Shown piece after piece: positions 13,769-53,386 of a DNA stretch of 55,287 nt. The position numbers and the translations under genes were made by a program. Under the pieces are notes generated by a model, which made no database searches, was not told the DNA's origin, and saw only the letters and a list, made by a program, of their open reading frames with translations. Source of the DNA: Saccoglossus kowalevskii. Lineage: Eukaryota; Hemichordata; Enteropneusta; Harrimaniidae. The stretch is taken from assembly GCF_000003605.2 (NCBI RefSeq), contig NW_003135341.1:303127-358413 (forward strand), in the 5' to 3' direction. Numbering within the stretch: position 1 is the first letter of the stretch; each line of letters starts with the position of its first letter.

Positions 13769-14206
13769 CTATTCAATATAATAAAACAAGTGATGATTAA
13801 TAAATTACGTCAGTAAGCATTAGATTTAAAGGTAAGTAGTTGTTATGCATATAACAACTGATTTTACACTATGTCTGGTATCACACTTGTAAAAAGCGGG
13901 AATATACATTCTGTCCCCTTGATTTCTTCATGGTTTTATTAGATGTCGCTTTCACCGATATATACATCAGATGATGAAATAAGGTTGCAAGTACAATAAA
14001 ATATAAATTAGTACATTCTACATATTAATGGTTGCAAGTTACAAACATCGATACAAATATGTTTTCACTATTCTCAATCTCACGATTTATTTTTTACCTG
14101 CGGGTACGACACGTATAAGATACCAGAGTCAACAAAACTAACCCATATTCTAGCTTTAAGACGAATCATGTGTAGGATAAGACACAGAAAAACGTTATCA
14201 AAATAC

Positions 14207-14359
14207 CTTCGTCTTTAATATGCAATGTCAGCGGCACGCATTGATTCGATTGACGATTACATCCATGTTTACATACACAATAGTAACTGCCCTCTTCATT
14301 TATGCAGTCTTCGTTGGCACTACATGTATGTGTACTCTCACTAGCACACTCGTTAATGT
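14207..14359 (-). CDS. EGF exon i, intact, next to HormR
   Basis: A 153-bp phase 1-1 exon. It begins DINECASESTHTCSANEDC, followed by YYCVCKHGC and a final Cys. The spacing is like the long calcium-binding EGF units of adhesion GPCRs. The acceptor is TTTCAG| and the donor is GAAG|GTATTT. It joins in phase to the HormR exon. Confidence 0.75.
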
Positions 14360-14584
14360 CTGAAATATACATGACACAAATCCACCATTTATAGGAATAT
14401 CAGCGTACCTCAAAAAATACAATGTGGAATTGACGGATGAGTCTCTTACTTCATTTTATCTAAATTGTGTATATGGCGAACACAACTTGCTGTGAAAGAA
14501 TTGGACACAAATGTATCGTATTGCTGATCTAGATACGGTATTTTAAAATATATTACAGTTGTATATTACTCGTTCGCGCTAGAA

Positions 14585-17770: not shown

Positions 17771-18259
17771 CTGTTTCGAAGGTAAACACAATTTTACGAG
17801 TGTGTATCTCACATTTCATTTTGAGACTACTCGAAATTCTCATTCATATGATGTAACCGACTTTCAAAAACATCTGATACTAGTATACTTAAAGAGATTT
17901 GCTTGTATTCGTGTATATGTAGTTATATTCTTCTTCTGCATGCGCTTTCTCAATATTGAAAACACATATACATTACAATCTATGTTTTCAATTACCAGCT
18001 AATCATAAATACACTTTACACATTTCTGACATTACATTAAAAAATGTGACTAATTAGTCAATAAGTTAGTTTGAAACACAATGAATATATATTGTGCCAT
18101 ACATGTGTATTTTTTAAGTTTATAAATTTATAGTATTGTTTATTCTAAAGAACATTTCAACTGAATGCGTGAGTTATTTTATAGAAAATTGCCCTAAAGT
18201 GAAATGGTATTGTTTTAATATCAAAGTTAACGGGGTCTGTGACATCACATAAATTTTAC

Positions 18260-18379
18260 CTGTTTCACAGTTTATCCCTTCGTATCCAGTGTCATTGCAG
18301 GCACAGAAATATGATCCAACATTATTCGTACACACCCTATTATGTTCGCATGGATCATTACATTTACATTCGTCTGTTT
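18260..18379 (-). CDS. EGF exon a, intact
   Basis: A 120-bp phase 1-1 exon. It begins ETDECKCNDPC and closes with CACNDTGYEGINCETG, so all six Cys are present and the Asp/Glu pattern suits calcium binding. The acceptor is TTTGTAG| and the donor is ACAG|GTAAAA. It is one of only two fully intact EGF exons in the array. Confidence 0.75.
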
Positions 18380-19039
18380 CTACAAATTGTGACCATAGAT
18401 ACCTAATTATGCACCTGATATAGCCTATTGATATACTAATATACTGGCTACTGATATACATACTGCTGCAACTCACGTCTTTACCATCAGTCATAAAACG
18501 AGACCTGGAAGACAACGAAGTTTTCCATTCTACAACTGACTTATTTACTTTAACATATTCCAAAATAAATGAAGGGGCAAACTACACCTATGACGATGAT
18601 CGCTTCACAATCAATGGGTAGAATATTGGGGAGCCACAATGGTCAATTTAGATCATGTGATTAGTCGAATATTTTTGTGTTGTCGATGATGAACTATCGA
18701 GTTAGAGAAGACTATAACGCATTGTGCAAAGCATATTTATAAAAAACAATAACTCATCGTTATGGCGATGTTTTATTAGACACATTAACAAATAATTAGC
18801 AATTAAATATAGATTATAATTTAATTAATACGCATGATAAATTCAGGAGAATCGTGTTAGGCGTGTAGTATACATAGACATTTTTTGATCCCCCCCCCCC
18901 TGTATTTTCGGTAAAGATATGACCACCATATTTGGTGAGAGCAAAGTATGTTACTGTGTGTCCCAAAAACATTAATGTTTACATAATTAAAACATAGCAA
19001 TCAAAATTGTCAAATGTATTAAAGTGACTATGAACCCAC

Positions 19040-28127: not shown

Positions 28128-29663
28128 TTAATATCCACAAAATCTATTGAGCTGTGTGGATTTTATCAATTGATCAAGGTAATTTACATCACTTTTGAGT
28201 AGGATACAATACCGATCGTGTATATTTTCAGCTTTGTCACAATTTTCAGTAACCTCAGATAGCCTCGCACGGAAACGAAACAAATCGTGTTCGAAGTCTC
28301 CATCATAGTTATCAATCTTATGCCACAATGTCCGGTTGAAATGTTGATAAACAATTAAGTCATTTGCTAGGCCTTTACTGAGTATTCTTTCCATTGCTTT
28401 CGTGATAGGTTGCCGTTTTCTTTTAGATACTTTCCTTGATCGATATAAGATGTCATCAAATGTCCAACACATCATTTTTTTCAACAGGACAAGTGATTCG
28501 TCCATATATTCTGTTATCAACACTAGGTCAAATTCTTTGTCCAATTCCACCAATCGTGATTCTTGTCCTGCTTTAATCCCAAAACAATCCAAGAATGATT
28601 TCACCTTTCGTTTTGAAGCTTCCGTTTTTTGTAAATATGTTGCAAATGGATTGCTGGAATTCTCCAATCTCTTAGTGTTTCTGGTGTAATAGTATAATGA
28701 CTCAAATTGTTTGAACGGTGAACGCAGAATACTAACGAACTTCGCTGTTGGAATTAAAGCTTTTAACGAATTATAATCATAGTTCTGGATGTGACTAGCA
28801 ATGTAATTGTAACCAGGAAATGTTTCAATGCACGAATATTTTATAGCAAGTACTTCAGATTCTCGAATGCGCAACAAATTTAATTTTGTAGACAGCGATG
28901 ACAACGCAGCTGTTAGATTGTTTCTTAACCCATATCTCTTGAGCAACGCCGCGAGTGTGCTGCTACCGGTTTTATATGTTTTAACATATATAAAATTGTG
29001 TTCCGGTGTACATGTGTCGAGCCTTTGCATTGTAAGGATAGAGGCATTAAACTTTTGGTCTCTGACATTGATCTGTTTTGTATCTTCAGTGAGTTTGATG
29101 CCATGTGGTTGAGGAATCAGATGTTTTTGCTTATGTTTCACTCTCTTGTAAGACAAACTGAAACGAATAATTTTAAAATAGTTTAGTTGAAAAAGAGAAA
29201 CATAAAGGGTAAAAACACATGGACTGAGAGGTACGAACGCTAAAAGCATTTATTAGTCAAAGTATTTATTTATTAGGCAAGATACTTGTTTCGCGAACCT
29301 TGCAATGGTAATGCAAAGGTCAATTGCATTCAATTACAAAACCGGCAAATACAATGATATGACTAAATGAAATATAGGTTATAACATAAGTGGCCACAAA
29401 CACACATTTTATTTGTAGTAGTCCGGTATAAGTGCTTGTGTGTTTATACTTAATATTGAGCCTTCTATTTCAACAACAAAAAACTTTGGGACTACTAACC
29501 TTTCATGTCCTATGTCTGCCATATATTTGATTGATAATTTCCATGGCCCAATATAAGCATAAAGAAGGAATGTGACAATCAAAACAATCAACAGGGAAGT
29601 GATAATCACCTTCATCACTGATGCGCTCTGTAATTGATTGAACACAGTTTTATGCAGTTCCAT
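28128..29663 (-). CDS. Galactose-3-O-sulfotransferase-like protein, two exons
   Basis: Two exons, 29663-29500 and 29157-28128, join in frame (GAAAG|GTTAGT to TTTCAG|TTTG) to give 397 aa, normal for the Gal3ST family. Residues about 16-39 form one transmembrane helix after a short N-terminus, as in type II Golgi enzymes. The 5'-phosphosulfate loop is VKTYKTGSST (about 113-122), preceded by HNFIY. The 3'-phosphate-binding segment is FVSILRSPFKQFESLYYY (about 195-212) with its Arg-Ser pair. Such enzymes move sulfate from PAPS to C3 of galactose on glycolipids or glycans in the Golgi lumen. Several N-glycosylation sites (NLT, NSS, NRT) fit this location. No break was seen. The substrate cannot be predicted. 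I chose the start at 29663 because it gives the membrane anchor. Confidence 0.9.
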
Positions 29664-34332: not shown

Positions 34333-37300
34333 TTACTTTTGTGATTTTCTCTTTTTCCGTTTAGTCTTGTTGTTTCTGGTTTCTAGTTTACGTCCGCTGT
34401 TTCGGGTATTCTGAGAAGATAAACAATAAATCAATGACGAGGGAAATCGATATCAGGCACAATATGATATCCTACTAAGTCTGTTTTTCGTAGTAATTCT
34501 TACTAAATTTAACACAAGCAACAAACAAACAAACAGTATTAAATAAAAAGCCTCATGTTAGCCTCAGCACTAGCAATCAGATCACTGTTATCATTTAAAG
34601 GCTGATATACCTTCTCATGACGTGGTTTGTCTTGTTTTGCTTCCAGTGAGGAAGACACTTGCTCTGAATTTAATGGCAGACCTGCTTGTTGGACAGTTGC
34701 GTACCCCTTTGTTATCTTTTCATGCTCTTCATTTACACACTTTGGCCGATCCACACTAATAGAAGGTTGTGATGAGCTTCTTTCTCGCGGTTCGGGTATC
34801 ACTTCTCTTTGTCGCTATCGTCAAAAAAATGTATTTAAAAAACAGAACAAGATGAGGTAGGTAAGGACAAATAGTAAACACGATTATCATCTATAATGCA
34901 ATTAACAGAGCTTATTGGTGACACTTCTCACTAAAATTAATCATACAGCGATACAATATACAACTGAAAATAATTAAAACAGCATATTGATGTAGGTAGG
35001 TCACGGTTTCATCAATTAAATCTCACAATTCAACATAACGAATACACGTAGTAATTCCCTTAAATCGAATCGATATTAATGTATTGGTGTCAATATATTT
35101 TCAAAGATTCGAACCACATAACATAAAATTGAAATTATATAGATAATCTAATGTAAATATGTAACTACTTATACAGTTAACAATAATCTGAATAACATAG
35201 TATATTCGTGTATGCATACTCATTTTGATCTAGTATTAATTGTATATCTTTTGCTGGCATGTATTACCTTAATTGTATCGCCCCTTTGATTTTAAGTAAT
35301 ATATACACTATTTAACACAACATAGCTTATATAATATTGTTCAGACACAAACAAGTTGTCGCACGAGATACCTCATAAATAGAGTTGTAAAGAGAAAATC
35401 GGTTTTCACATGGGGAAATGGGGGGAAAGCGATCTTGGGGTAATGGGTCTTGGGGCATGGGGTAAAACAGTAATATGCAATCCCAAACAAAATAATGAAT
35501 AACATGTTTTAGAAATATGTAAATTAGTCAAGGCCTAGAAACCAATATGCTTACTTTATCATCTAAAAGCATATCACGATTAGCCATGGGTTTCAAATCA
35601 ACAAATTGTTTTGCTTTTGCTAAGGTTACTTTGATTTTTTTGAAGTATTGAATATTTAAATTTGGGTTTCCTCAACAATTCAAAGAATCGTGTTGGTAAC
35701 ACTAGTGGTAATCACGTCAATCAAACCTACATCAATGTTTAGAGATTTCCTGTAGTCTTCTTTCATCACATGGACCAATTTAATGTACTCCCCCTTTCGT
35801 CCAAATTTGGTATCTTTCAACTCGCTAATCATCTCCAATTCCCACTCGGACAGTATCCCTTCTCCATCCATCATTTCTTGCTAAAATAGAAAATGCATGA
35901 TTTAAAATAAATTGTCGTATAGCTCAGATCCTCATCAAACAGTCTTATCGGCGTACTAATAACTGCTCGACAATACTATAATGTGGTTATATGATATTAT
36001 TATTCATCTGTCACCGTAACGCCACAAGCTACAGCGTGCCGTAATTCTGTGGTATTTTACAGGGCTTTTTCATCCTACCATATAAGGAAATACGAATCCA
36101 AATATGGAATGATTACGCGCGTAAGCGCCCATCAAATAATAAAAACAAACATGGATGCCATCTGAAATTAACCAGACTCCACACAAAGAAGTTTGCTGAT
36201 TCTGTTCTAAACTTTTTGGATTCCGGCATTCCAACGAGGTATCCTTGGAAGGAAAAGATGTATAATAATAATAAGGTTATAACGAGATTACCTCAAAGTA
36301 TGCACTCAGACAGTAAGCCGCGCGTCGATCGATACCCTAGCTGTACTGTCTTCGTGCATACTTGTAGGTATTCCCGTAATAACCTTATATTATTACATGG
36401 ACATCGTTATGAACGTGTTACGAACCAATTTTACACACGTCAATCTCACATCACTACTCATTATTTTTTTTCAAATATGTTCATTCAAATAGATTGTATA
36501 TGCAAATATAAGATCTCGCTGTGAACGAGAGAGCAACAAGACTTGTTTTTGTATTTTAAATAGTGCTACGATCACCCGTCATCGTTTGTACTGTTCTCTA
36601 TGGTTACAGTGAACACAGGGGGACAGTGAACACAATGACATGTGTGAACGGGACACTAATTGTCGGGCAAAATCTCGAGAATCTCTCGCTCTCAACGAGA
36701 TCTCGACAGTCATTCGCGACTGAGGTCTATGTCATATGAAAGTGGAATAGAACAACCTGTGCATGGTTCATTTTCACACTTAGAATTTGACTTTAATTGT
36801 CGGACTTTCACACAGATGACTGAATCAAATGATAGTGTTTTTTTCCGATGCATCACCCAGAAGATGTACAATTGGCGGGTTCGATTTGTAATTGTATATT
36901 GTATATTCTGTATATTGCGATATTCACGGAATTGAATTCCGAGACCACAATGTCATCGAGTGAATTGACCCCCCTCCCATAATAATATGCTAATAGTATG
37001 GACTACTTACTTGGATGTCGAGGTTTGTGGTCGAAGACATACTTGACATTTCACAACTTTGACTGATTTCAGACGGTGTGATATTCTCGTCTAATAAACA
37101 CTCTTCTTGGCAGATTTCTATGGATTCACACGAATTGTCAATGACGTCCTGTCCTAAGCTGGTATGGCTCTGTGAATGAAATCGCAAACAATAATAAATG
37201 GTCGATTCACCGTGGTCAGCATCATATTTAACATTGTCTTATGTTATGAAGTTCACCATAATATGACTGTATAGGATAAAGTTAACGAGTTGGAGTGCAT

Positions 37301-40300
37301 TCTTTAATGTATTGAACGACACGAGAGCAACAGGCCCAAGTGAAGTTTAATATCTCTTGATGAAGCACGGTGTCCTTAATCGGCGAACGTTGACACATTC
37401 ACACGGTGGGCGTCACAATACCACACTTACAGTGAACGTCACCACATATACAGCGAACGTCACCACACTTACTGTGAACGTCACCACACTTACAGTGAAC
37501 GTCACCACGTTCATATCCGCATCCACAATGTTCAAGGAAACTTGTTAATAATGTAAGACTTGAAGAAGAGAAATACTAATACATATTTCAATGCTTACCA
37601 CTTCACCGCCTAGGTTATCAATGCTTGTGTTTTGCACGTCGTTTTGCGATTCCGACTCTACACACGTAATGGCGTTCAAATCTTTAACAGCTTCTTCGAT
37701 TGAACTACCATCATTCTTGAGGAATCATTGTGAATAATACAAAAGTAAATGCGTTCTTTTAATGAAGTACGATATTTAACACAAATGTGTTAATTGACAA
37801 TTGTTTACGTTACAAATATGACGAATTTGAAATAAAAATATGAAATAATTTCAGAAAAAACATGAAACATTTAGTTTCTGTAATAGAACTGATATTCAAA
37901 TGGCCGATGATGTCGCGTTGGGAACGATAAAGTCACGCGAGATGTTATGCTGCCAAATATTGTTCGAATATCTGCCGCCATTGTGAACCGAATTCCATGC
38001 CTACATAGGTCGGCGTAATAATGGACGCGCTGGTGGCAGAAAGAGAAACAATATTTCGGGGCAAAAACAAGTCACGTGGCTCTCCGATCCCCGAGGAAAA
38101 TAGGGTATATGTATTCACCTGGCTTCTCTATATCGCGATGTGTGGTGAAATTGTCAAAATTATATACATCTTGACTGATTGTTGATCGATGTTAATAACC
38201 CATATCCCAATTTTGAAAATAATAGTGTCAATGCTAAATATAAATTCACAAGAAAATTGACTTTATCGTCTCAACGAAAATACTAATAGCTTAAAGCAAT
38301 GGTCAGTCTCGTGTCTAAACAGTCGCTGCAACAGACGAGCATGAAGTATTTCAACTTCTCGGAAACATTTGTTCCCGTTCATTGCGATAATAATAATTGC
38401 ATTGCATACCTTTCCATATATATGACTCGTTAAACTTGACTTGCATCGAAGTGTATTCCCTTTCTCGTATGTAGGAATATTATTAACATGATCGGCATTA
38501 GGATGTCCACTGCGAGCTTCCAGATGACATTCATTGGCATGGCAACAATCTTGTAATTCTATGATGAATATAATATAAAACACGTGACGCAGTATATGTA
38601 TGTAACATTTCACCTGATACACATTTCACAATGCAATATTATACAATCACAAATGTAAACTCGTTTCAGGTCGAAAGAAAGTCATAGTTCCTCATCAAAT
38701 GGATTGTAAGAATACATGCGTCAAATCATACCTTGTTTGCATTCTTTATCTGATTCTGGCGATTCACTGTTCGGTGATTGAGTGTCACTGGTAGCTGTAA
38801 GGGCGTTGTTAATATCATGGTTGTGTACCTCCTTTCGTAACGGACGTATCAACTGATGTATTGTTCCTTCGAGAGTAAATGAAATTATTTATATAATTAT
38901 GCGATAAACGAGGTGGCTTACAATATGACCTTTTGATTAGTTTTTTTTTTTTTAATCCATGTTGATTTTTTTAAATAGGCTTTCAATCCCTATTTTGTTT
39001 GAAATCCGATTCAAAAATCTATTCTATTTTGGGGGGATTCAATTATGAAAGATATATTTGTGTTTGAAATACCTACTCATTTTTAAAATACAATTTTAAG
39101 TAATATGTTTGTACAAATGACTAGACCACTGCCATGCCTAGTAAATACTTTTATAGCGTAGAAGTACGACTTTCTGACACGCCGTTTCTGACATGCATAT
39201 CAAAAGTATTTTGCGAGTATAATATGTTCAGACAAAGGCTAATAAAAGGGAAATGACTTTTAAAAAATCACTACATTTCAGATTTCTTTCTCGCATTCCT
39301 TAGTATTCTTCGAGAGTGTGTTACAGACAAAACGTTTCTACTGTCATGCTTAACAATACTGGTACAGTATTATTGATGTTGAGTATATTCGTAGCAAGAT
39401 AATTTGGTAATAATGAATTTTAACTTTTTCACCAAAAAAATGTATAAATGCAGATACACTGTTGCAGGTTTCAAAAATATAGTCCGTTGCATTCATAGTC
39501 CAGAACCTGACGATATTCAGCTATGCAGTACCACAGTTTACACATTTCATCTATACAGTTCTTATTGCCGTCGGAAAACCCCCGAGGACATGATATGCCA
39601 CCATGATGTACTATGATGTGCTATCTTACTAGAAACTAAAATAACATCAATATATTATTACATTTGTCATCGTCACGGCGCGGGTCTTATTTATTATTAA
39701 ATAACACAAATAAATCAGGCTTCATAATTTATTTATGATAAATTAAATATTAAAACAATGTTTGCTTTATGGAACTAAAAGCGTCAGTATGTTTGTAAGT
39801 TCAAACACTTACATTTTCTGTAGAAAGATAAGTACTATTAATGTGATATATATTTCTAACCTGTTAGATTGGTTACTACTTCTTTTAATAGTTCAAGTTC
39901 TTGAGAATAATGATCACCAACATTTACCAACGAATTCTTTGTTAAGTCCTCATTTAATTTGTCTACTCTTGTGTTTAAAGCAGTGAGTGAATGTTCAGTC
40001 TTGACCAGTAGCTGTCCCATGTCAGCTGTCAGGTCATTCTCTGGACCATTTCCCATCTTGTCTGTGTATCAACAAAAAAATAGTATTGTAGTTTATGCGA
40101 ATCTATAATATTCCAATATTCGTTTCCAATATCGCACACAATATTGATAAGTACGACTCTCACCATTCAAGTTACGTATTTCCGGGCCAACATACGACTT
40201 TTGGCAAGTACTTTTACCAGCCTCATCCTAAGAAAGAACAGATATATTTGTGATAAATAGAACTTGTATTTTAATGCAAGTTTGTAACTTGTAATACACG

Positions 40301-43300
40301 GACAACAATGCGGAGAATTTATTAAGAGATTCTAGTCATTTGTGATTCAAAACATGACATAGAAAAAACAAACTACTGTTAGTGACAATATTCATGCCGG
40401 GTCGGTTGATGTCGGTCGATCGAGCGTGGTTGGCGCAGAGATACGTATACCATTGCAATAATGCACCATAACAGAAATATTAAAGCGGGATGGTCGTCAC
40501 CTGCGCACGCGCGGGAATCGAGTGCCAGGCGACGATGACAACACACGCTAAAACGTAAAGGCTCATGGGTAGACGCTTGTTTATAAACAATGACACGCTA
40601 TCCGACGCATGCGCAGGTGACGACTCCTCCGCTTTAATTATGTACTACTCCGCTATGTACTTCCAATTCAATATTACACAACATTATCACAATTTCCAAA
40701 AGTCAAGAGGAGATTTCGTACGGGATAACAAAAATTATAGAATTTACTACGAAAAAAACATAGCAATACCTCAATTTGGATGGAAAAACAATTCATGCGT
40801 TCACCGTTAATTCCCCAGAATGATTTCACCGGTTCGCTAAAACAAGGAAAACATTATCCATAATCATTCAGGTAGATTTTATAAGACGAAGAAAGAAAGG
40901 TATGTGGTTCACACTATTTTACGACCATTGTTTTCACGATAAATAAACATGCAAATAATTGAAAAGATGTTGCCAGATTGAAATCCACGGCATGTATGTT
41001 TCGAGTACTGACGCATCATTTGACGCACACTTGATCAGATTGCCTACCTAATATGCATAGAGCTATGACACATAATGTTTGTCATGAAATCACGAAGACC
41101 AGTCCTCCTTTCTTCAAGAAAATCTGTGTAAGAAACATACGTCTCAATAAACATAGAACATCGCATTGTAGTCTGTATTTGCTTTCAAACTATCCCTTCA
41201 TAATTGTTTACTGTTACTATTTGACATTGCTATACGGTTAACGCACATACATTTATATGCAGTTATCATGAACTAATTTGTAGGAGATGGCGTACACAGC
41301 AATAAAGACAACCAATCATGTGGTTGACTTCACTCCATGTCAATATATGGAAATTGACTTTGAAATTACTTGCAGCAAACATCTCAGCTCCTTGCTACGT
41401 CACATTATTTTACGTAAGCGTCTCGGTCCCGTCAAATTACACGCTTTCAATACTGTTAATATACTGTTACTTATCGTCAATATACTGTTATTTTATCGTT
41501 TACATGGACATGGTCACAAAGAAACCATTCTGTCAACACTAAGCCGATTTGTAATTAATTATCGAAAGCATAATGTAGTGTTTGTTACTCCCCGTGTTCA
41601 ACGTAACATGGAATATTCGAACGGTCAAAATAGCATTCGAACTCTCTGTTACACCAAAGAAACAACAACAGTTGTTTGTGCTTTTATTCTCTAGAGTAAT
41701 TGCTTAGACTTTGCAGCTTGTATTATTGTAAATTAATCATCTGGTACGTATTGGGAGCGTATTCAATTAAATATTGTGAAATATCTATTACATTAGTATG
41801 AAATAATATGAAATGTTCTATAAAACACATAGCTGTTATCATTTAAAAAATAATTATATTTTCATTTCATTCCTTATGACTTTATTCTGAATTATAGATA
41901 TATTTCATTCCACTCCCACAAAAAATCCAATTACGAATAAAAGCAAAATGTTGTACCTGCATCCGGGATCTCGTCTTCATCAGTCCACAGTGGAGGAAAT
42001 GACAATTTAATTGACGGAAATAGCCGATGTAACTAGAATATAATATCATAACATGTGACGGTGTGTATTCATTGTTTATAAAAAAAAACTATTAGTGTTA
42101 TTTTAAAAGTAAATGCAGAACTAGTTCAAAATACACAATAGTTCATCTATTAGGAATGGTGAGCAGAAGTTTATTATTAGTTTGTAAACAAAAATATTCA
42201 GTTCATGTGAGAAACACAAGTCTTACTCTGATGGACATTTTATCTCCCGATATAGCTATACAAGTAGTGAGTATTTACGAATGTATCAGGTATGAAGTTT
42301 TAGTATGGCTAAAGTAGTATTATTTTTTTTTGTCGGTGAGCAGAGCTGAATGTGGAAGCTTCCACGTGACTTGATATCATAAATGAGTCTTTGGAGAGTT
42401 TCGGAGCTTTAGTCGAAATAACTAAGAGCAATACAACTGGAAAAGACAAACAGAAAATGGGAACTTGAATATTTTAAAATAAAAAGGTGTAAAACACCAG
42501 GAGTATTTTATCCAATTTACATAATTAATGTACTAAGAACGGAAGTTATAAAGCTACATTATTTAAAAATTAACACACACAAAAAAAAAACAATTCAGAA
42601 AAGTAGATTTAGAATTTTAAAAATATCATTAAAACTATCTTTCATTAGTCATTGTATTTTGAGTAACCAGTACCAATTTTCTTGTGTATGTATTTTCCAA
42701 ATCCTGAATGTAAATCACCACTAATTCACTGGTGCTACAACTGTGCCATTGAACAACGCTATAGTCGGTTTTAGTCGCTGCTCAGTAACATCAGTTTAAA
42801 ACCGGCTGGTAATATAGTTAAACACGTTAAAGTGCGTATTGTATTTAGCAAACAGCAAATGACAGCGCGAACTAAATGCATTCACGTGGTGAAAAGTCTC
42901 TAATAAAACGTCAATGATTGAGTCGTCTTGTAAATATATAAAATAACACTAGTTGTAGAAGATGTTAATGAAACGCAAGCGTCAATAAAAGGCGCGACAC
43001 GGAATGTGTTGCCCTTATTCATCATTTCAATGAATGGGATACATCAACCGTTGTTAACGCGCACAGAGTACATAGACATATACATTTACTAAATCCATTA
43101 ACATTCAGCCAGTCAGTCAGTGAGATTGACAGCCACAATCTTGTGCTAAATTTTCATTGATTGATTTGATTGATTTATTCATACTGTATTTGCGAGTACT
43201 TAAGTTTCAATACCATATATGCCTCTGTATATGCAGCTGTCCCCACTAGACAATATAAATATGTCCCTCTGTAATCTTTAGAAATTATTAAATTATATGC

Positions 43301-43806
43301 CTACCTCTTGATTGAGTGTTAGTAAATCATTGTACAGTTTTTCAACTTTATATATACCCGTCTCTGTGTGTAACTGTAAACTATATGCCTAGAATATAAA
43401 GTGGTGTATCGAACATATCATGTTGTGATTGGCTTCAATATGAGAACAGAATAACAGAAAACATGCCCATAGTATGTTTGAATTTCAATAATTTAAATTC
43501 GATTCGATGAATAACCAGCTTATAATTCTACAGTAGATGACACAGTTAAAGTTTGATTTGTACAAGCCTATTCAATAACCATCTACTTTCGAAGTCATGA
43601 CAGAATTTGTAGATGTTTTTTTTTTCTCATCACTGAAACAACAGAATGAAACTGCATTAATTTACTACTTACGTACGATTCAATGATATACTGACCCTCA
43701 GATTGTTTTTGCTCCACGTTCTCGCCAAGTCTTCCACAGTTTCATCTTCACTGTCGAATGATGTATATGATACAAAATCTGTGTCATCCCAATTACTTAG
43801 ATCCAT
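34333..43806 (-). CDS. PX-like domain protein, long paralog (15 exons, 596 aa)
   Basis: Exons: 43806-43696, 43388-43305, 42032-41957, 41123-41048, 40836-40770, 40227-40164, 40061-39861, 38866-38732, 38558-38410, 37715-37599, 37169-37011, 35880-35727, 35670-35555, 34814-34611, 34410-34333. All sites are GT-AG, phases agree throughout, and the sum is 1791 nt. Residues about 25-125 resemble a PX domain: EKLYNDL (usual RRYSDF), LFPSIKLSFPPL (proline loop), FLEERRTGLRDF (second basic site) and EPVKSFWG (closing helix). PX domains bind membrane phosphoinositides, but the first basic site is degenerate here. Residues about 160-226 look coiled-coil. Residues about 240-413 are acidic and Ser-rich. Residues 572-596 form a basic tail with KRKKRK. 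It starts MDLSNWDDTDF. I cannot name the family beyond PX-like. Confidence 0.72.
35671..35726 (-). other. Very short intron (56 bp) of the long PX-like gene
   Basis: It runs from GATGTAG|GTTTGA to GTTGAG|GAAACC. It is needed to keep the frame open, because reading through hits a TGA. The other introns of the gene are about 100 bp to 1.8 kb. Confidence 0.5.
36007..36440 (+). repeat. Dispersed repeat of about 430 bp with internal hairpin, copy 1
   Basis: It starts atctgtcaccgtaacgcca and matches the reverse complement of 46135-46565 along its length. Near its end, two arms of about 45 bp (around 36260-36303 and 36356-36398, carrying aaggttat and ataacctt plus the shared tatgca/tgcata) can pair into a hairpin. 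The copy lies in an intron of the long PX-like gene. Confidence 0.8.
37403..37512 (+). repeat. Minisatellite, unit about 21-22 bp, four copies
   Basis: The unit cttacagtgaacgtcaccac is repeated with a few changes. In one plus frame it reads TLTVNVTT repeats, but this is in an intron of the minus-strand PX-like gene and is not coding. Confidence 0.9.
40479..40638. mobile_element. MITE, copy 1, in an intron of the long PX-like gene
   Basis: Terminal inverted repeats of about 33 bp: the left begins attaaagcgggatggtcgtc and the right ends gacgactcctccgctttaat, both followed inward by cacctgcgca. It is about 160 bp and has no coding capacity. A second copy in opposite orientation is at 49074-49216. 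Confidence 0.85.
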
Positions 43807-45375
43807 TTATGTGACTACAGGTAACTACCATTACTAAGAACGCAATTACACATTCATAAATTGGATATTTTACATTTTCTCAGTCGTAAATAATGCAATT
43901 AATGCAAGATGCATGTACATTTCACGTGACAGGCCAAGTGAAATCAGCGGCATTATGATGTTCTGATTTAATTGAGCGAACGTAGTATTTTTCTAAGCAA
44001 AGTCATTTGGTGCCAATCGTTAGATTTTATTCGTAAATATTGTGGATTATTTTACGAATATGCGTGATAACAATTGCAAATAAAAACAATATTCGATGAC
44101 CTTAATCATCAACTAGGTTCTAATAGTACGTTCCATCGCCATTATTACTATTTAACTTCTATTATTATAAATTCTCAAAGTTTTAGTTGACAGTAAAATA
44201 ACGAGCAGAATATTTTAAGACGTGTACGTCGATCACAAGGAACCCGAAATATAGACGTTTTAGCAGAAAGTAGTTGCAGAACATTAATCAAGCTAGGTTT
44301 TAAAGTATTACCGTTCAAAGGTTTTTTTTCACATAAACACAACATAATTGGCACTCACATAAATAGAAAATATTCTTGAATGAAAATTTAGGGTGTTCGC
44401 CCCTAAACCAATTCGTATTGAAGTGTCAGCAACATTTCACGTTTCGAGACTTGTTACGGTGTTAATTATATGCAACAAGTTACCGATCACGGTATCCAAC
44501 TGGAACTCGTGAATTAAATGTCATTCATTTGCCTGTGTCGATAAGACAGTCAGTAGAATCAGTTATAAACATTGTAATCAATGCCAAGGACACTAACAAA
44601 AAAAAGAGAACTACACGTACACACGCGTTAATGTGTAACTGGAATTGTGTAGTAATGTATATTATCGTAATCAATCTTTACTAGGACGATCGGCAGACCC
44701 ATCGAATTGACGTGTCCTACCTAAATAAAACAGTAGTGCGCGAAAACCTGGCCTCCTCCTTCACCTACATAACGAGGATGCACATAAAGAGAAGTGGTTG
44801 TTTGGAGACCAAGGAATGTCGCTTGGTGATACAACACAGTCGTTACCTTGATATATAATTAAATGCCGGGTAATTAAATATCTCGCGAGACTATTTCTGA
44901 TGAATACAGCTAGGATAGAATTAGTATTTATGTAGGTATATTTACTGGTACTCTATGGCAATCTACGCATAATCATTGGTGTCGATGAATTTTTGAGTTG
45001 GTATGAATAACAGTAGAAGAGAGGTCTTAAACTACTGTTTATATATCAACAAAACAACATCAGCCCGCATTTAATTTTAGGTACACGCAAAATAAGGTAG
45101 TTCCGTCATTGAGATGCCACAAACATCATACACAACTACGCCAAGCGTCGTGGTATCAGAATGTTGTATTATATATCACAGACGGATTGCCTTCCAGTCG
45201 TCGATTCGTCGTGTGTGACGTCTGCACAAGGCTATTACAAGTTGCAATCAGGGGTATTGTGATTGTTGTAGACTCACCTGAAACGTTCTTTGCGTATTTC
45301 TATATGAGTCCAGCGCTGACGAGAATAAATTATGTTGTCAACGTAGACCCGCTTGTTGAAGGATAGCGTCCGCCA
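43807..45375. other. 5' flank of the long PX-like gene, no feature seen
   Basis: AT-rich. An open plus-strand frame at 45109-45366 (85 codons) has no recognised domain. No promoter element can be called with confidence. Confidence 0.5.
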
Positions 45376-45625
45376 TGTTATGATATGATATGATACGCCG
45401 GTCATGGGTTCAAAGTTTAATGACATTATATATCAATACGCCGCCAACGCAAAGTGATAATGTATATCAGTACGTTGCAAGTCAAAGGTGAAACGGTGTA
45501 TCAATACGCCGCCAATTAATAATGATATGGCATAGCTATACGCCAAAAGTGATCCGGTATACAATTAGCCTACTAAAATTGACATGCTATATCATTACTC
45601 AGCCCACCAAATGTGATACGCACTG
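45376..45625 (+). repeat. Degenerate tandem repeat (tatatcaatacgccgccaa type)
   Basis: Units of about 35-60 bp with tat(a/c)(t)atcaatacgcc and gtgata phrases recur five or six times with decreasing similarity toward the 3' side. Confidence 0.7.
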
Positions 45626-46134
45626 CACTACGCACTGAATTATGCGTACTTCTGTTGAATTGAAGACACAGACTGGTTGATCAGTTCCATTTACATTCTC
45701 ATAAAAATATAAATAAATCCGTAATAAATATAAACCCGTAATTGGTAAATAATCGAATATAAAGAAGAAAGCACAATAGATTGACAAACATATTTGATGC
45801 TCAAACCAGAGTGAGACGAAAGTATTTGGATCTGACAGAATACAGCCAAGAATAGATGCTACGAAAATATGCAAGCACATTGGAATTGCGCCGACAAATA
45901 TTTATTTGCGTTTATACACAGAATTAAATTTACGCATTGCAATAACTAGATGCGTATCAGTCCTTCCGTATGCATTCACACACAAAAATGAATTTGCATT
46001 TTTAATTATTAAATGGATCCTTTTGGTTATGGTATTTTCCACACGTGCCATAGTTGTTTGCACAGAATGAATGACTGCAGCTTCAATTTATTTCAGGTTT
46101 ACGTCTAGGGACTAGCTAAAACCGCGAAGCGTAT

Positions 46135-46565
46135 GTCTTAGTAGTGCAAGCAAGATCTGTATAATATGAGATTATTACGAGGGTACCGCAAATCATGCAC
46201 GAAGACAGTACAGCGGAAGTATCGACTGACGCACAGAGAAGGTCGATGCAATCGTCTACTGTCTGAGTGCATACTTTGCAGTGTCCTCGTAATAACCTTT
46301 ATATTATACATCTTTTCCTCCCCGGAGTACATCGTGGGAATGCCGAAATCCCAAACGTTTAGAACAGATATAGCGAAATTATTTGTGTGAGGCCCGGTCA
46401 AACCCTGGGGCTGCCATGTTTGTTTTATTATTAGAGGACGCTTACGCGTGTAATCGTTCCATATTTGGAATTCTCATTTCCTAATATGGTAGGATGAAAA
46501 TACCCAGTGCAATACCGCAAAATTACGACACGCTGTAACTAATGGCGTTACGGTGACAGATGTAT
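46135..46565 (-). repeat. Dispersed repeat of about 430 bp with internal hairpin, copy 2
   Basis: Reverse-complement copy of 36007-36440. It ends tggcgttacggtgacagatg on the plus strand and has the same internal hairpin arms (attattacgagggtacc against ctcgtaataac). The two copies are about 10 kb apart in opposite orientation. Confidence 0.8.
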
Positions 46566-48213
46566 AATAATATGTAATATTGTATTTATCATGTTTGCTT
46601 CTAGTGAGAATCACGTTATATTAACACACTATGGAAAAACCGGTACAAGTTAATTAATCGGTAAAATTTAGATTAAACTTGTGAAAGTGTATTTATCATT
46701 CCACACCGTGATGACAAATTGATTAAATCTCCCTGACCACAATTCAGCTTATATGTAGACCTAGCAAAAGTGGTAACAAAAAAAACCCTGTCATATAAAT
46801 ATAACCATGTCTTGACAAATTTACATTGTTTTGGGTATTCTTACTGCATCTATAAAACCATGCCGTTTTGTTATTTTCAACTTGCCAACAAAACACGTAT
46901 TAGTCAAAACAGATTTCGGCACCGGCACAACACTCGCATTTATCCAATATAGGGGGAACACTACTCTGCCAATAACAACATGATAACATGTGAGTAAGCA
47001 GGGCTAAGCCAAGGATTTCGTTAAAGATGTATTGGTTTGATAACATTATCATTGTATTCAGAATCATTTCACTCATAATATTAAAATTAAGGATAATGCA
47101 ATTAGCAAATATTTGTTTAATGTTTGTTTGTTTACTTGAAACAAAAAAAAATCATTTTGAAATACCACTTTGATGTAGTTATCAAGTATCCTGGCTAATA
47201 TATTTTTCATGATATTTTACCAAATATGCATTTTAGGCACAAAACAAGATTTTATGCATTTATCTGGAATATATATAATAAGACGTGTTCAAATATCATC
47301 TTCCACATCTTTCACGTCGTTTAAAAAAGTCATTAAAAGGTGTGTCCCATATTCGTTGAGTTAGAGAGTCAACCTGTGGACGAAATCTGTATTGAGAAAA
47401 AAAATACAACGTGCTAGAAATGCATGTGTCGATCCACATTCTATGTATTAGTAAAAATCGATTTTTCAAAAAACAGGTTCGTGATCAGTTTATTGTTATC
47501 TATAAAAAATACACATATACATTTAAAAGGATGTTTAATAATTATACATGAATTTAAGTAATGGCAAGTTTTAATTATATATGATATATACTAGTGTGGT
47601 TCGTATGGCGCAGTTTCATAAGATTGGTTTCTGTGTTGAAAAGATGGACCCACAGACGATATACCAATATTCTGAATAGAAAGAAAAATATAAAATGTAT
47701 TATTTGTTCAATGTGAATACTTTATAACAAACACGGTGAAACATTTATTGCAGCAATGTGATTTTTATGCGACAATGCTCACCAAATGAATGAGCCGCGT
47801 AGATTGCAAAATTAGATCTGAATATTTACCTGTTTGCGTTTCGTCTAATACAATTGATCCCATTGTAAGCTCTCACATGAAATTGCTCTTCCCAATTGAT
47901 GTTGTACAACTCTCTTTTCGTTTTTCATAAAGAGAGGTTTGCTCTATATAAAAAAAACAGAATATAGCGGTAAATAACAAATATTTGGCAATTTGTTACT
48001 CTTATTCTCTTCACCAGTCCCACAGTAAAATCATTGTGCAATCAAATATAAGACAAGGTGCTGCCAAAATGAGAAAATTTCCAACAAATGCTGTGAGGCA
48101 ATTCTCACAAGTAAATTTGGTCTATAATTCGCTGACTTTTTTTTGGACTAAACATCGGATTATTTCGTCACTTAATCATTTTATTGACTGTAATATAACT
48201 TAGTCAGACCTTA
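46566..48213. other. Between the PX-like paralogs; exon-like pieces only
   Basis: The minus strand 47671-47591 is an exon-like segment: TATTCAG| followed by 26 codons (NIGISSVGPSFQHRNQSYET then APYEPH) and a stop. Another candidate lies near 47941-47830. They could be leftover C-terminal exons of the short paralog, but its own stop at 48350 and a nearby AATAAA make this unnecessary. Confidence 0.3.
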
Positions 48214-48219
48214 TTTATT
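48214..48219 (-). promoter_or_regulatory. Candidate polyadenylation signal for the short PX-like gene
   Basis: AATAAA (in aataaataagg) on the minus strand about 130 bp beyond the stop codon at 48350. It supports the choice of terminal exon. Confidence 0.55.
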
Positions 48220-48349
48220 AAAAAAATTAAAACGTAATTATGGTTCACACTACGGTTGGTATGACATAATACAAAAAGATAAAATCGATTGCGTGATACA
48301 TTAATATAATTTAGAGTTGAGTAGTGTTGGGTTGTCTGGTAGACATCAG

Positions 48350-51300
48350 CTAAGTCAAAACCAACATTTTCAGTAAATTGGTGGGCAAGCTTGCCAACTC
48401 ATTGCCCCAATGGGATTTGTATAATCCCCTAAACCTGTTCATACTCGCCTTTGTATTCATTGCTGTAATTTTCGTCGGAGATTTTTCTTTGAATTCTACT
48501 TCATTTCCAGCATCCTTGCGATACGACACGATGGTTTTAGGGTCGCCTGCTGGCTTAGCAATTTCCATTGTGGACTTGATCAGTTCTTTTCCACGCTTCA
48601 TCCATTGAGATGCGAATGCATTAACCTTACCGGACGCTGACTGCAGAAACAATATTACATATATGACTAGTGTAGTAAATTGATTGAAATAGGATGGGAC
48701 AAATTGCAACGTAATTTACATGTTGATAACCTGTGACATATTTGTAATTCATTAACATAAAATGAACACCTAATAATAAACAACAATATATATGACATAC
48801 ACATGAGCTGTAATGTTTGTCTGGGCGACAAAGAGCGTCGCGTAAAATTAAGTAATTACGCATGCGTCGCCGACGAGTCCTACGCGACATCAAATGTACG
48901 TATATTTAGCAATTTAATTTGTTTCACAAAACAAATAACATAAAATATGGAACTCAGTTTAAACTCAATATTGTTATGGTGATGTCCAATGAAAATATTT
49001 GAAGCTAAAATTTAACTACGCCCTATTAGTCCTACAAACATCCGTCCTACAAACTCCATGTATCTTTCCAAAGTTTAAAACGGGGGAGTCATGCGTCAGG
49101 TCATTGTTTACAAACACGCGTCTACCCATGAGCCTTTCGCGTTCTTAGCGTGTGTTATTATCATCGCTTGGGACTCAATTGCCGCGCGTGCGCAGGTGAT
49201 GATTCTCCCGCTTTAACAGATTCGGACATAATATACGTACTTCATTTGGGCATTCCGGAATCGATGGTAGGCAACTTGATGTGGCGTGGTCGAGATAGTC
49301 GTCCGTATCCGACTCTGTTGGACTTTCATTCATGTCATCATAGGGCAGTGACTTCGAGTAGCATTGTTTCATTTCTTATTTAAAATAGAATAATTAAATA
49401 TGAAAAAGTTTTCAATAGACTGATATTAAACAATGTCAAATAGCATAGGGAATTGTCGTATATTTTTAATAGCACCGAACACAGACGTTACTTACCTGTT
49501 TTTGCAAGTTTGTCGAAAACAGAAGACCAATCTTGCGTAACATACTCCTGCCGTGTGTCTTCAACACGGTTGGAGGCAGTACCTAAATGTTCCCATAGTC
49601 TGTGAATCTCATCTGTAGGAAATATTTATTTACAAAGAATATAAACAAAATCTTTCAATATACGTGAAATTGAGTGGTGAATTGATCGTATTGTGTGTTA
49701 GAATCTGGAGACACCAAAGACTGCAATGTAATATTTTCAAAGTATCGCGAGGTGTCGACATCCGACTTATTGTGAGATGAATATGTATAATCGAGGTATG
49801 TGGTATTTCATTTCGAGTATTTTTTTTTTCAATATTCGATCGTGCACACATTTAACAAAGGTGAGCATTAGAACCATAAACAGTGTGCCTCGATCGGAAC
49901 ATCGTCTCGATATAATTTTTAGACATGTAATGTGTATCACGGTGTATCATTAGCTTTAATTCACGCTACCTTTGACTACATTAGTGGCAAGTCGGATACA
50001 TTCAAGTTGATCGCTTGAGTAAAGAGCATCGCTTTCGCTGATAGCTTCAAGTTCTTTGCTTATATCTGTAAAGTCTTCTTGCAACACTGCTATGGTCCTT
50101 TTAGGCAAAGAATACTCTTTGTCTTTCTCAGTTCGAGTTTCGTCTGACAAGTGAACAACTTGTAATACGCCTAAACCTATTTATGGTAGAAATCCAGTGA
50201 TTTGTTTTATAGAGAAACAAGTTGGGTTTACGTGTATGTTTGGGGTGGGGAACAAAACGTATTCGACACATAACACATAATGAAGTCGCGGGAAAGGTTG
50301 TATGCAAATTGAGATGTCTGGATATTTGTACAAAATTTAATAAAATTATAAATTGATTCAAGATTCACCATGTAAAGTTAATTGCCATTTGAATATATTG
50401 TAAGAAACCAAATTCCATTTACATTTTAAAGTGTACAGAAAAATATTCAAGTAACTAAGTCTCTTTGTCATTTCTTTATGTTGTTCATTTCGACTCTTGC
50501 ACCTAGATTCTCCGTCACCTTGTCATATAATAAACCTGTCATATACATCGCGCCCTCTTGTGTCGAAACACTTCAATGACATAAATAGGTGACACGACTG
50601 CCGTTCGAATTGCGATATCGTTTGATCTATAATAGATTTTACTATATCCTTAGATGATGAACGACTACACAAACAAGCCATATACGTAATTGTCACGTCA
50701 GGGAAGCTCTCTGTAACTAAAGGGTGCGGTTTTATGAATGATGCACTATACAGCATGCCCTTTGCCAACATCCAGTGATCGATTACGTATAACATTCCCA
50801 TTCGAATATATTAAAAATATTGAGTTACCTTCGCCAGCAAAAAGAGTCTCATCTTGTAAATGAAGTACTTCATCAAATGCCTATAACGAACCATTGCTTT
50901 ATTTAGTATAGAAAGTACGTTGTAATGTTTCGTATTCGAAGTGAATGTAATAATGTACGTATCATCCGCACGCACTGTTTTACAGAGCCCTAATTGCTGA
51001 TATCCTCCGCTGTCAACAAAGGCATATGTGCTGTAGACTAAATCTATATAGTTTCATGCACTGATGCTTTAAAAGTAAATATACAGTCTGAATGTTCGTG
51101 GACAATGGTATGTCGTGATTATACATGTTTGTTTTATAAATATTGAAATGAACATCACCTGGTCGCGAAAGGATATATTTACGACTTTCTCATTGACACC
51201 GACGAAATCCTTGACCGGGTCACTGAAATCAATGAAACGATGCTAACATAAGCTCACGCGAAAATATGGCATTTACTCATATAGGAACTGATCGTGTTTA

Positions 51301-51786
51301 CCGCTGTGTATCACGTGGTGCCAACACTGGCATGTGTCATGTCGTACCAATATTGGTATGTGTCACGTGGTACAAACATTGGTGTATCATTATGAATCAC
51401 ACATGCAACTCTGAGCAAAGTCTAAACGATGACCTTACCAATAGGTGATTTCCGTGTTGACTTTGTTCACTTACTGGGTGTATATTTGAAGACATGATAT
51501 AGGGCCAAATCAAATTTTATTGACGGGAAATTCATATACCTGATTGCGTATATTATTTTCAAGGCGACGAAAAATAATGCATGTCCAGAAAAACAACAAT
51601 ATAATCACAGGCAAATCACGAACATATCAAGATGCAGCATTTGAGATCCGATCTCACATCAACGGCAACGCGATTCGCCGCTGTGAACAGATGCGTACCT
51701 TACTAACCTACATCAAACGTCCCAAAAATCAGCAGCAGCGATAGCAGATAGCAGCAGAATTGGTGATAACATGAATATCAGTATTG

Positions 51787-51840
<54 letters not shown>

Positions 51841-53386
51841 CGCATGCGCATGGTGCATATTATGCTATTGTGGTCTATTTACCTGTTAATCATACGCCTA
51901 TGGCATACCACGTTTTCTATGAACTGTTCCAGTCCACACTGTCTTTCAATTAAGAAATCTGAAGTGTAATATATCGTAACAGTTAAACTGTATTCACTAA
52001 TGGACACGGATTCGGAGGAAAATCTCCATGATTTAGAATTATACAGAAGTTAGGCGATTTGCAAAAACTGTGTCATGTTTATATGTAACACTTCATAGTA
52101 TTATACTTCTAATCAAGACCCAAAGGTAATATATCGGCGATATTTTTAATTTTGAGGGTTCGCAAAAGTCCTTGAAATGACCAGTTGTCTTTGTTTCACT
52201 TTCGGGCATCACGGAATAAAAACTCGACTTCCGGTTTTGAAAAATTTCGAAGTTGTATTCGACAATTACTCGTCAGAGAGTTTTAATCATTTGACTACTA
52301 CTGTCTCGAGATGTGTTTTTATGACTAACCTTCTGTTACACTTTCCTTACACAACAAAGGCGGAAACAACAGTTGAATTGAAGGAAATATTACTTTAAGC
52401 TATTAAAATAATGTAGAAAAATATTTGACATAAATATTGTCAGTGTAAATAACATTTAGCAACAGTCACATACTAGTAGGGGAAATACAATTTCATTGGG
52501 CACTAAACAAGTACAATCAAACACATTAATGATACATTACAAAACATGCAGTAAAAAATAACTTACAAAAACGCGAGGTATACAACCAGGGGAGGTATCA
52601 GATGTTTTGAAACGAGTGAGTACATTCTGCTCCACATGTGTGATACTCACCATCATATATATCAGTAGTTGTCTATGACAGTCTATATATATAAGAAGAC
52701 CGTCATTTGCGCTGTCATCCAAGTATGGTCTAGTGACACCCATGTGATTATTCTTTATCAATCCAAATATATTTGCTTCCAATGTGTTATTATAGTACAA
52801 TAATATGTGACAATGCCATTATGTACATAGTTAAAATGCATTGTACTTTCTAATTAATTGCTTGGTTCAATAAGTGCGTTAAATGTGTGTAATTGACAAT
52901 GTTCTGACTCGTATTATGCACGTGACATTGTGTTTAATCATGAAATAATATAGACTCACTTGCTCATTGAGTAGATAAAAGTCGCCATATTTCTTCGTTA
53001 TCTCAATTATTTTATTTTCCACTGTGACGTCAAGGCAATACTCCTATAACAGATATTGATTCAGTGAATGAATATGAAAATCTATTCATTATTTTGTCAG
53101 TTAATTGCCGTTAGCATTGCGCGAAATGTTTTGTATTTGACTACAATAATCGTTTTGTGATTCCATGTTGCGCGCGCGTCAGCGTCAGAAGTGACACAAG
53201 AGACGCCACCCCATTGGATTAGGGGATATATTATTCTCAGCTTTTGAATCGCGGCAGCAATCGCTTGCATATGCGCAATCAAACACTTACATTAAAATTA
53301 TTATCTTCCAACTCTAAGAACAGTTCCCCCGTTTCTCCAGTAGGTGATACTGGCTGTGTATCTTCCTCGCTTTTTCTTCTCGACAT
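48350..53386 (-). CDS. PX-like domain protein, short paralog (10 exons, 385 aa)
   Basis: Exons: 53386-53291, 53043-52960, 52399-52330, 51958-51883, 51222-51159, 50880-50829, 50143-49970, 49612-49496, 49374-49241, 48640-48350. Phases agree and the sum is 1158 nt. Exons 1-9 pair with the long paralog in order and phase; exons 2 and 4 have the same lengths (84 and 76 bp). The PX-like region spans about residues 17-125: ITKKYGDF (closer to consensus RRYSDF than in its sister), IFPSIQLLFPPL, FLIERQCGLEQF and DPVKDFVG. About residues 148-206 are helical and possibly coiled-coil (LQEDFTDISKELEAISES). Exon 9 is acidic. The last exon is basic (WMKRGKELIK) and unrelated to the sister's C-terminus. An in-frame 60-bp segment at 52626-52567 could be an optional exon. 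Probably cytosolic, membrane-associated. Confidence 0.72.
49074..49216. mobile_element. MITE, copy 2, beside a splice donor of the short PX-like gene
   Basis: It matches the reverse complement of 40479-40638 over its length, including acccatgagcctttcgcg and the gcgcaggtgatgattctccc end. Its right edge is about 24 bp inside the intron that follows exon 9 (donor at 49240). Confidence 0.8.
51789..51839. repeat. (AT)n microsatellite
   Basis: A pure AT run of about 50 bp in an intron of the short PX-like gene. Confidence 0.97.

Follow-up and report, generated by a model that had tools for sequence, protein, structure and literature searches.

A stretch of 55,287 nucleotides (nt) from the hemichordate Saccoglossus kowalevskii (contig NW_003135341.1, positions 303,127 to 358,413, here called the window) carries on its minus strand two neighbouring genes, A and B, whose predicted proteins share a PX domain. 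We propose, with a probability of about 0.64, that A and B are a divergent tandem pair of the type of SNX16 (sorting nexin 16, an endosome protein) and SGK3, in which the PX domain is followed by a helical tail and has been turned into a protein-interaction module. To judge from the exons recovered elsewhere in the same genome, the pair is kept beside a separate canonical SNX16 gene and a separate SGK3-type gene. The proposal is built on the identity of the PX domain, on the positions of its introns, on the kinship of the two genes, and on the residues that line the pocket of the domain.

PX domain and nearest relatives

The Pfam PX family (PF00787) matches A with 35.1 bits and B with 32.0 bits, against a gathering score of 21.6. 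The first-pass annotation of this DNA had described a related pair with a PX domain, and that description is borne out by Pfam, by sequence matches in the PDB, and by the similarity of A to B. Besides PX, no Pfam family reaches its cut-off in either protein. Kinase and BAR families are absent from the Pfam matches up to E 5, and a BAR or kinase tail was rejected on this ground; an NCBIfam search of three tail pieces gave no match of use.

The closest relative, meaning here the closest among PDB chains (PX families without a solved structure lie outside this comparison), is SNX16 for both A (E 2.3e-11) and B (E 1.7e-7). Identity to the solved SNX16 PX fragment is 27/82 for A and 26/82 for B. 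When a joint profile of A and B is compared with the PDB, SNX16 comes first (53.8 bits, E 9e-14), followed by SGK3 (~34 bits) and then MVP1 (22.7 bits); the matches to MVP1 and SNX3 are far behind those to SNX16 and SGK3. In a tree of eight rows, which we picked by hand, A and B split from the other six with support of 96/95. Both genes had been called unnamed, which holds in part only: their best match, together with introns shared with genes of their own genome, places them near SNX16 and SGK3.

Introns shared with SNX16 and SGK3

The genome searched consists of 572,110,611 bases in 4830 contigs, with the window on contig C2722. The PX part of A finds 12 matches, of which four are its own exons and one of the eight others is a canonical SNX16 gene on contig C2986. 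The PX part of B finds five, its own four exons and the same SNX16 gene. The latter is identical to the solved SNX16 PX fragment at 44 of 70 residues. One exon ahead of its PX domain and two within it were found at C2986:30001-60000. Since SNX16 has these separate exons, A or B as the SNX16 orthologue was rejected. A canonical SGK3-type PX (54/91 residues) is found on contig C54, where the gene was assigned from its PX exons alone (C54:94001-114000).

Three introns within the PX domain are common to A, B, and the SNX16 and SGK3-type genes. The first lies before the V-F or V-Y of strand beta2 (phase 0), the second ahead of the LK that comes after helix alpha1 (phase 0 as well), and the third after an HK stretch (phase 2; for SNX16 on the donor side only). 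As a control for the second, the LK site was located in other PX matches of the genome at 12 residues from RR, ungapped, and none of the 12 matches has GT exactly there; one (C3811) has a donor two codons ahead of it. Nine of these matches are over the Pfam cut-off, and C4558, C1432, and C3811 are below. The other 12 of the 24 PX matches were excluded, being seven second exons of genes already counted, SNX16, SGK3, two in which the site is uncovered (C2723 and C1465), and one that is unreadable (C4070).

A and B own a fourth PX intron, which separates exons 3 and 4 in phase 1 and is missing in SNX16 and SGK3. This intron was considered as a private mark of the pair and rejected, as a phase-1 intron falls in that loop in three of seven other two-exon PX genes; of the remaining four, two carry a phase-0 intron at or near this place, and two have one further upstream. 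The intron is perhaps ancestral to PX genes and was then lost from SNX16 and SGK3, and A and B may branch just outside these two. Judged by these introns and matches, A and B belong within the SNX16/SGK3 branch of the PX family or border on it.

Kinship of A and B

The PX regions of A and B are identical at 45 of 108 positions (42%; 84.3 bits by BLASTP). When exons 2 to 5 of the two genes are compared, z ranges from 6.8 to 11.4 and none of 500 shuffles reaches the score. In a table of every exon of A against every exon of B, strong scores fall on the diagonal only. Chance similarity of the two PX parts is ruled out by these three results. Several details reported earlier are confirmed: exon 2 has 84 nt and exon 4 has 76 nt in both genes, the exon-end phases of exons 1-9 (0,0,1,2,0,1,1,1,0) are common to both, and identical residues, counted on exon alignments, number 12/25 in exon 4 and 10/15 at the start of exon 3.

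The one-to-one correspondence in phase that the first-pass annotation also claimed for exons 1-9 stands for all nine. Residues are similar in exons 2-5; exons 1, 6, 7, 8, and 9 have no convincing similarity between A and B (z 0.8, 1.4, 0.9, 2.1, and 0.0). Beyond exon 5, where the likeness in residues ends, the two genes correspond in phase and similar size alone, the sizes in A and B being 52/64, 207/201, 117/135, and 134/149 nt for exons 6-9. By phase alone, a match of four has a probability of ~0.02 under general animal phase frequencies. The agreement of exons 6-9 in phase and size is suggestive of common origin, not proof of it.

Across 92 aligned PX codons, 40 encode the same residue. The proportion of differences is 0.39 at nonsynonymous sites (pN) and 0.83 at synonymous sites (pS), the latter being saturated. 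Saturated synonymous sites together with 40/92 kept residues indicate that the duplication is old and that the proteins are held by selection at least in part. From these comparisons it appears that A and B are old tandem paralogues.

No third tandem copy turned up when the window and ~30 kb on either side were searched with A and B by tblastn; the sole match (E 0.21, to the tail of A) is interrupted by a stop. Across the whole genome, neither query brought up another copy, and A and B missed each other as well. Neither gene is among the 24 matches of the PX family search. It follows that diverged copies may have escaped. For what the first-pass annotation suggested may be a lineage-specific family, the count of two copies applies to this genome alone, at the limited sensitivity of these searches. 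Viral contigs yielded 52 matches to two patterns but no relative, which says little because both patterns lie outside the PX core. Literature searches for a PX gene expansion or for 'sorting nexin-16-like' gave no lead, the matches listed being protists, a planthopper virus, or entries without the PX term.

The phosphoinositide pocket

In the part of Chandra et al. 2019 (PMC6449406) on which we draw, four residues recur in all human PX domains tested that bind phosphatidylinositol 3-phosphate (PtdIns3P): the Arg-Tyr pair, the proline-loop Lys, and the Arg of helix alpha2. PX domains that do not bind PtdIns3P miss at least one of the four. Each of our two genes keeps two of the four: A has K50, Y51, L75, and R89 at these places, and B has L55, Y56, L80, and R97. 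All four are kept in the SNX16 and SGK3 genes of the same genome (RRY, PPK or PGK, and Arg). Neither A nor B carries the full set of residues that defines canonical PtdIns3P binding (groups II and IV in that part of PMC6449406). The pair had been called 'phosphoinositide-binding'; as A and B each miss two of the four side chains, that label is unsupported.

A second lipid site may be missing as well. The column of the alpha1 Tyr of SGK3 is N58 in A and N63 in B. We take this column, by SNX1 numbering, to be the putative second site (group III, a His or Tyr in alpha1 with basic neighbours). A site of this kind in helix alpha1 is, by the residues aligned there, probably absent in both genes, though A has a Tyr (Y55) three residues before this column.

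Predicted helical tail and proposed mode of action

Structure prediction was applied to exon 7 of A and of B as single exons. In B, helices are predicted at residues 6-41 and 44-65, with a mean predicted local distance difference test score (pLDDT) of 89.6; in A, they are predicted at residues 11-20, 25-47, and 54-67, with a pLDDT of 66. The heptad z is 5.2 for A and 3.3 for B, these being the best of 71 and 134 windows and uncorrected for that choice. SNX16 has a coiled coil following its PX domain, and deleting the coiled coil shifts the location of SNX16 (PMC3130770, in the sections drawn upon here).

The proposed mechanism is as follows. The PX domains of A and B would have lost PtdIns3P reading and would hold a protein partner instead, as the PX domains of SNX5 and SNX6 do; by analogy, a protein partner would be the most likely ligand. 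The helices of exon 7 would form dimers, like the SNX16 coiled coil. A and B would then reach endosomes, if at all, as partners of one another or of SNX16 and might serve there as a scaffold or modulator of sorting. A bolder version seems rather unlikely: A and B as a co-evolving 'pseudo-PX' heterodimer, the PX equivalent of pseudoenzymes, joined through helical tails and regulating endosomal SNX16 or SGK3 through contacts with proteins instead of reading lipids, which would make them a PX branch without a described member.

None of the known systems matches the pair in full. SNX16 resembles it in being the closest PX among solved structures, in having three of its PX introns match in position and phase, and in the helices after the PX domain, predicted in A and B. 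In contrast to A and B, its pocket Arg and Lys are intact and it lacks their further PX intron. Shared PX introns and a PDB match are common to SGK3 too, and so are not unique to SNX16. SGK3 (CISK) is the second-best PDB match and has the same three introns in its own-genome gene; it differs in carrying a kinase, for which A and B have no match, and in the pocket residues, which are changed in A and B. The PX domains of SNX5, SNX6, and SNX32 bound none of the lipids tested (PMC6449406, same part), and that of SNX5/6 binds a cargo protein, for which an insertion in the PX domain is needed (PMC7082075, portion cited). Unlike A and B, SNX5 and SNX6 are SNX-BARs with a PX insertion; A and B have no BAR match and, in the eight-row alignment, no insertion. 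Nor did the PDB comparison of A or B bring up SNX5, SNX6, or SNX32.

Several points weigh against the pair being SNX16/SGK3-type proteins with a repurposed PX domain. Both genes are models predicted from the DNA sequence. The analogy with SNX5/6 is loose, because cargo binding there needs the PX insertion that A and B lack. The model of A exon 7 is of low confidence, and the tails of A and B have no convincing residue similarity to each other. Exons of the own-genome SNX16 past its PX domain were not found as far as C2986:80000, so its tail offers no comparison with those of A and B. The branch of B in the eight-row tree is long (1.96). The part of PMC8280035 consulted groups SNX16 with SNX3, 10, 11, and 12, at low support, and SGK3 is not among the human SNXs named there. 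Weak lipid binding by A may be conceivable, through K50, a Lys for the usual Arg, and K78, a Lys three residues past the usual place in the loop. Finally, the loop before helix alpha2 also holds a phase-1 intron in C1608, C345, and C3354, a few residues upstream of that in A and B. The fourth intron is therefore no proof that A and B are sisters, and such introns in other PX genes lowered our confidence from 0.68 to 0.64.

Alternative explanations

The alternative that survives best, itself a minority view, is that the gene models are partly wrong: the phases of exons 6-9 would agree accidentally or through choices made in modelling, and exons 10-14 of B would come from another gene. It is compatible with what we propose for the PX part. 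It draws on exons 1 and 6-9, whose residues are not convincingly similar between the genes, on exons 10-13 of B, each of which ends in phase 0 without a family match, and on coding lengths that disagree with the first-pass annotation. That annotation gave 1158 nt for A and 1791 nt for B, and the rebuilt models give 1191 and 1671 nt, stops included; no listed acceptor for the last exon of A yields 1158 nt, and introns 9-13 of B offered no 120-nt exon in frame. Against partly wrong models, exons 6-9 agree in phase and size together, and exon 7 is predicted to be helical in both genes.

It is doubtful that A and B are ordinary lipid-reading sorting nexins, in which A, and perhaps B, would bind PtdIns3P or other phosphoinositides via substitute residues and act on endosomes like SNX16. 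Both PX domains are over the Pfam cut-off, neither gene has lost the Tyr or the alpha2 Arg, and A has the two Lys residues described above. A also has a Tyr (Y55) three residues ahead of the alpha1 column, near the start of the helix, which leaves room for a second lipid site. However, every PtdIns3P binder tested holds all four pocket residues (PMC6449406, same part), and the loop Lys is a Leu in both genes, as is the Arg in B. In SNX16, the substitution Arg144Ala abolished membrane association (PMC3130770, same sections); by alignment, the equivalent of Arg144 is K50 in A and L55 in B. In addition, acidic residues outnumber basic ones in the PX domains (9 basic and 15 acidic in A, 8 and 14 in B).

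Least probable, and quite unlikely, is that one or both genes are untranscribed or decaying duplicates on the way to pseudogenes and lost the pocket for that reason: the same functional residues are lost in both, B has no close poly-A signal, and the tails have diverged past recognition, but the 10 and 14 exons keep open frames and GT-AG junctions, and the PX codons retain 40 of 92 residues despite saturation at synonymous sites. We prefer the reading of A and B as a tandem pair with a PX domain turned to protein contacts.

Gene models and other features of the window

Two minus-strand genes had been placed at 48350..53386 (A) and 34333..43806 (B), and these hold up, with GT-AG at all junctions and closed frames. 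Gene A has 10 exons, 1191 nt of coding sequence, and 396 residues, with PX matched at residues 41-116 and a tail with predicted helices. Its exon 1 (53291..53386) ends in phase 0. Exon 2 (52960..53043; 84 nt, phase 0) carries K50 and Y51 at the place of the usual Arg-Tyr pair, exon 3 (52330..52399; phase 1) carries FPPL with L75 in place of the usual Lys, and exon 4 (51883..51958; 76 nt, phase 2) carries R89 of helix alpha2. The similarity to B ends with exon 5 (51159..51222; phase 0). Exon 6 (50829..50880), exon 7 (49970..50176), which is the one predicted to be helical at low confidence, and exon 8 (49496..49612) all end in phase 1, exon 9 (49241..49374) ends in phase 0, and exon 10 (48350..48640) includes the stop. 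An AATAAA lies on the same strand ~130 nt downstream of the stop (48214..48219).

Gene B has 14 exons, 1671 nt of coding sequence, and 556 residues, laid out as a PX domain (matched at residues 49-122), the predicted helical exon 7, a long tail without a known domain, and a basic C-terminus. Exon 1 (43696..43806) ends in phase 0, exon 2 (43305..43388; 84 nt, phase 0) carries L55 and Y56, exon 3 (41957..42032; phase 1) carries FPPL with L80 in place of the usual Lys, and exon 4 (41048..41123; 76 nt, phase 2) carries R97. Exon 5 (40770..40836; phase 0) is where the similarity to A ends. It is followed by exon 6 (40164..40227), exon 7 with its predicted helix pair (39861..40061), and exon 8 (38732..38866), each ending in phase 1, and by exon 9 (38410..38558), ending in phase 0. 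Exons 10 (37599..37715), 11 (37011..37169), 12 (35731..35880), 13 (34611..34814), and 14 (34333..34410, including the stop) are the least certain, because open frames and splice signals alone support them. Exon 14 has a Lys/Arg-rich end; the last 60 residues of B include 17 basic and 5 acidic ones, and a tail of this composition could be a nuclear signal or make non-specific membrane contact. Neither AATAAA nor ATTAAA occurs within 900 nt downstream of the B stop.

Repeats lie within and between the two genes. An (AT)25 microsatellite (51789-51839) is found inside A intron 4, and a 21-nt tandem repeat (37420-37508) inside B intron 10. A short element with terminal inverted repeats (38 nt, 82%), similar to miniature inverted-repeat transposable elements, occupies 40479-40638 in B intron 5 and has a related copy at 49100-49216 in A intron 9. 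Another repeat has two copies in opposite orientation, at 35994-36393 in B intron 11 and at 46161-46573 between A and B, which are 78-91% alike over arms of 34-109 nt; it was considered as a trace of the gene duplication and rejected, being taken for an interspersed element.

Elsewhere in the window, a single open frame of 373 residues on the minus strand (28128-29249) matches galactose-3-O-sulfotransferase (Pfam PF06990, 115 bits, cut-off 27). A calcium-binding EGF domain lies at 14166-14399 on the minus strand (PF07645, 37.8 bits), and a weaker EGF match, below cut-off, at 18174-18581 on the same strand. Transposable element pieces are found on the plus strand at 761-2651, namely a PIF1-like helicase piece that scores 21.9 bits, short of its cut-off of 25.9, and an endonuclease piece whose 41 bits exceed the cut-off of PF14529; these are compatible with a Helitron-type element with an endonuclease. 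No Rfam match to a structured RNA is over threshold in the window.

Implications

PX domains are commonly annotated as phosphoinositide readers, and this pair cautions against assigning the label 'phosphoinositide-binding' from a PX match alone. The duplicated genes have kept the PX domain and its ancestral intron pattern and have changed the lipid pocket. If the interpretation proposed here is true, A and B would be a clean natural case of a membrane reader turned to another use, with partners that could be tested for, beside intact SNX16 and SGK3 genes.

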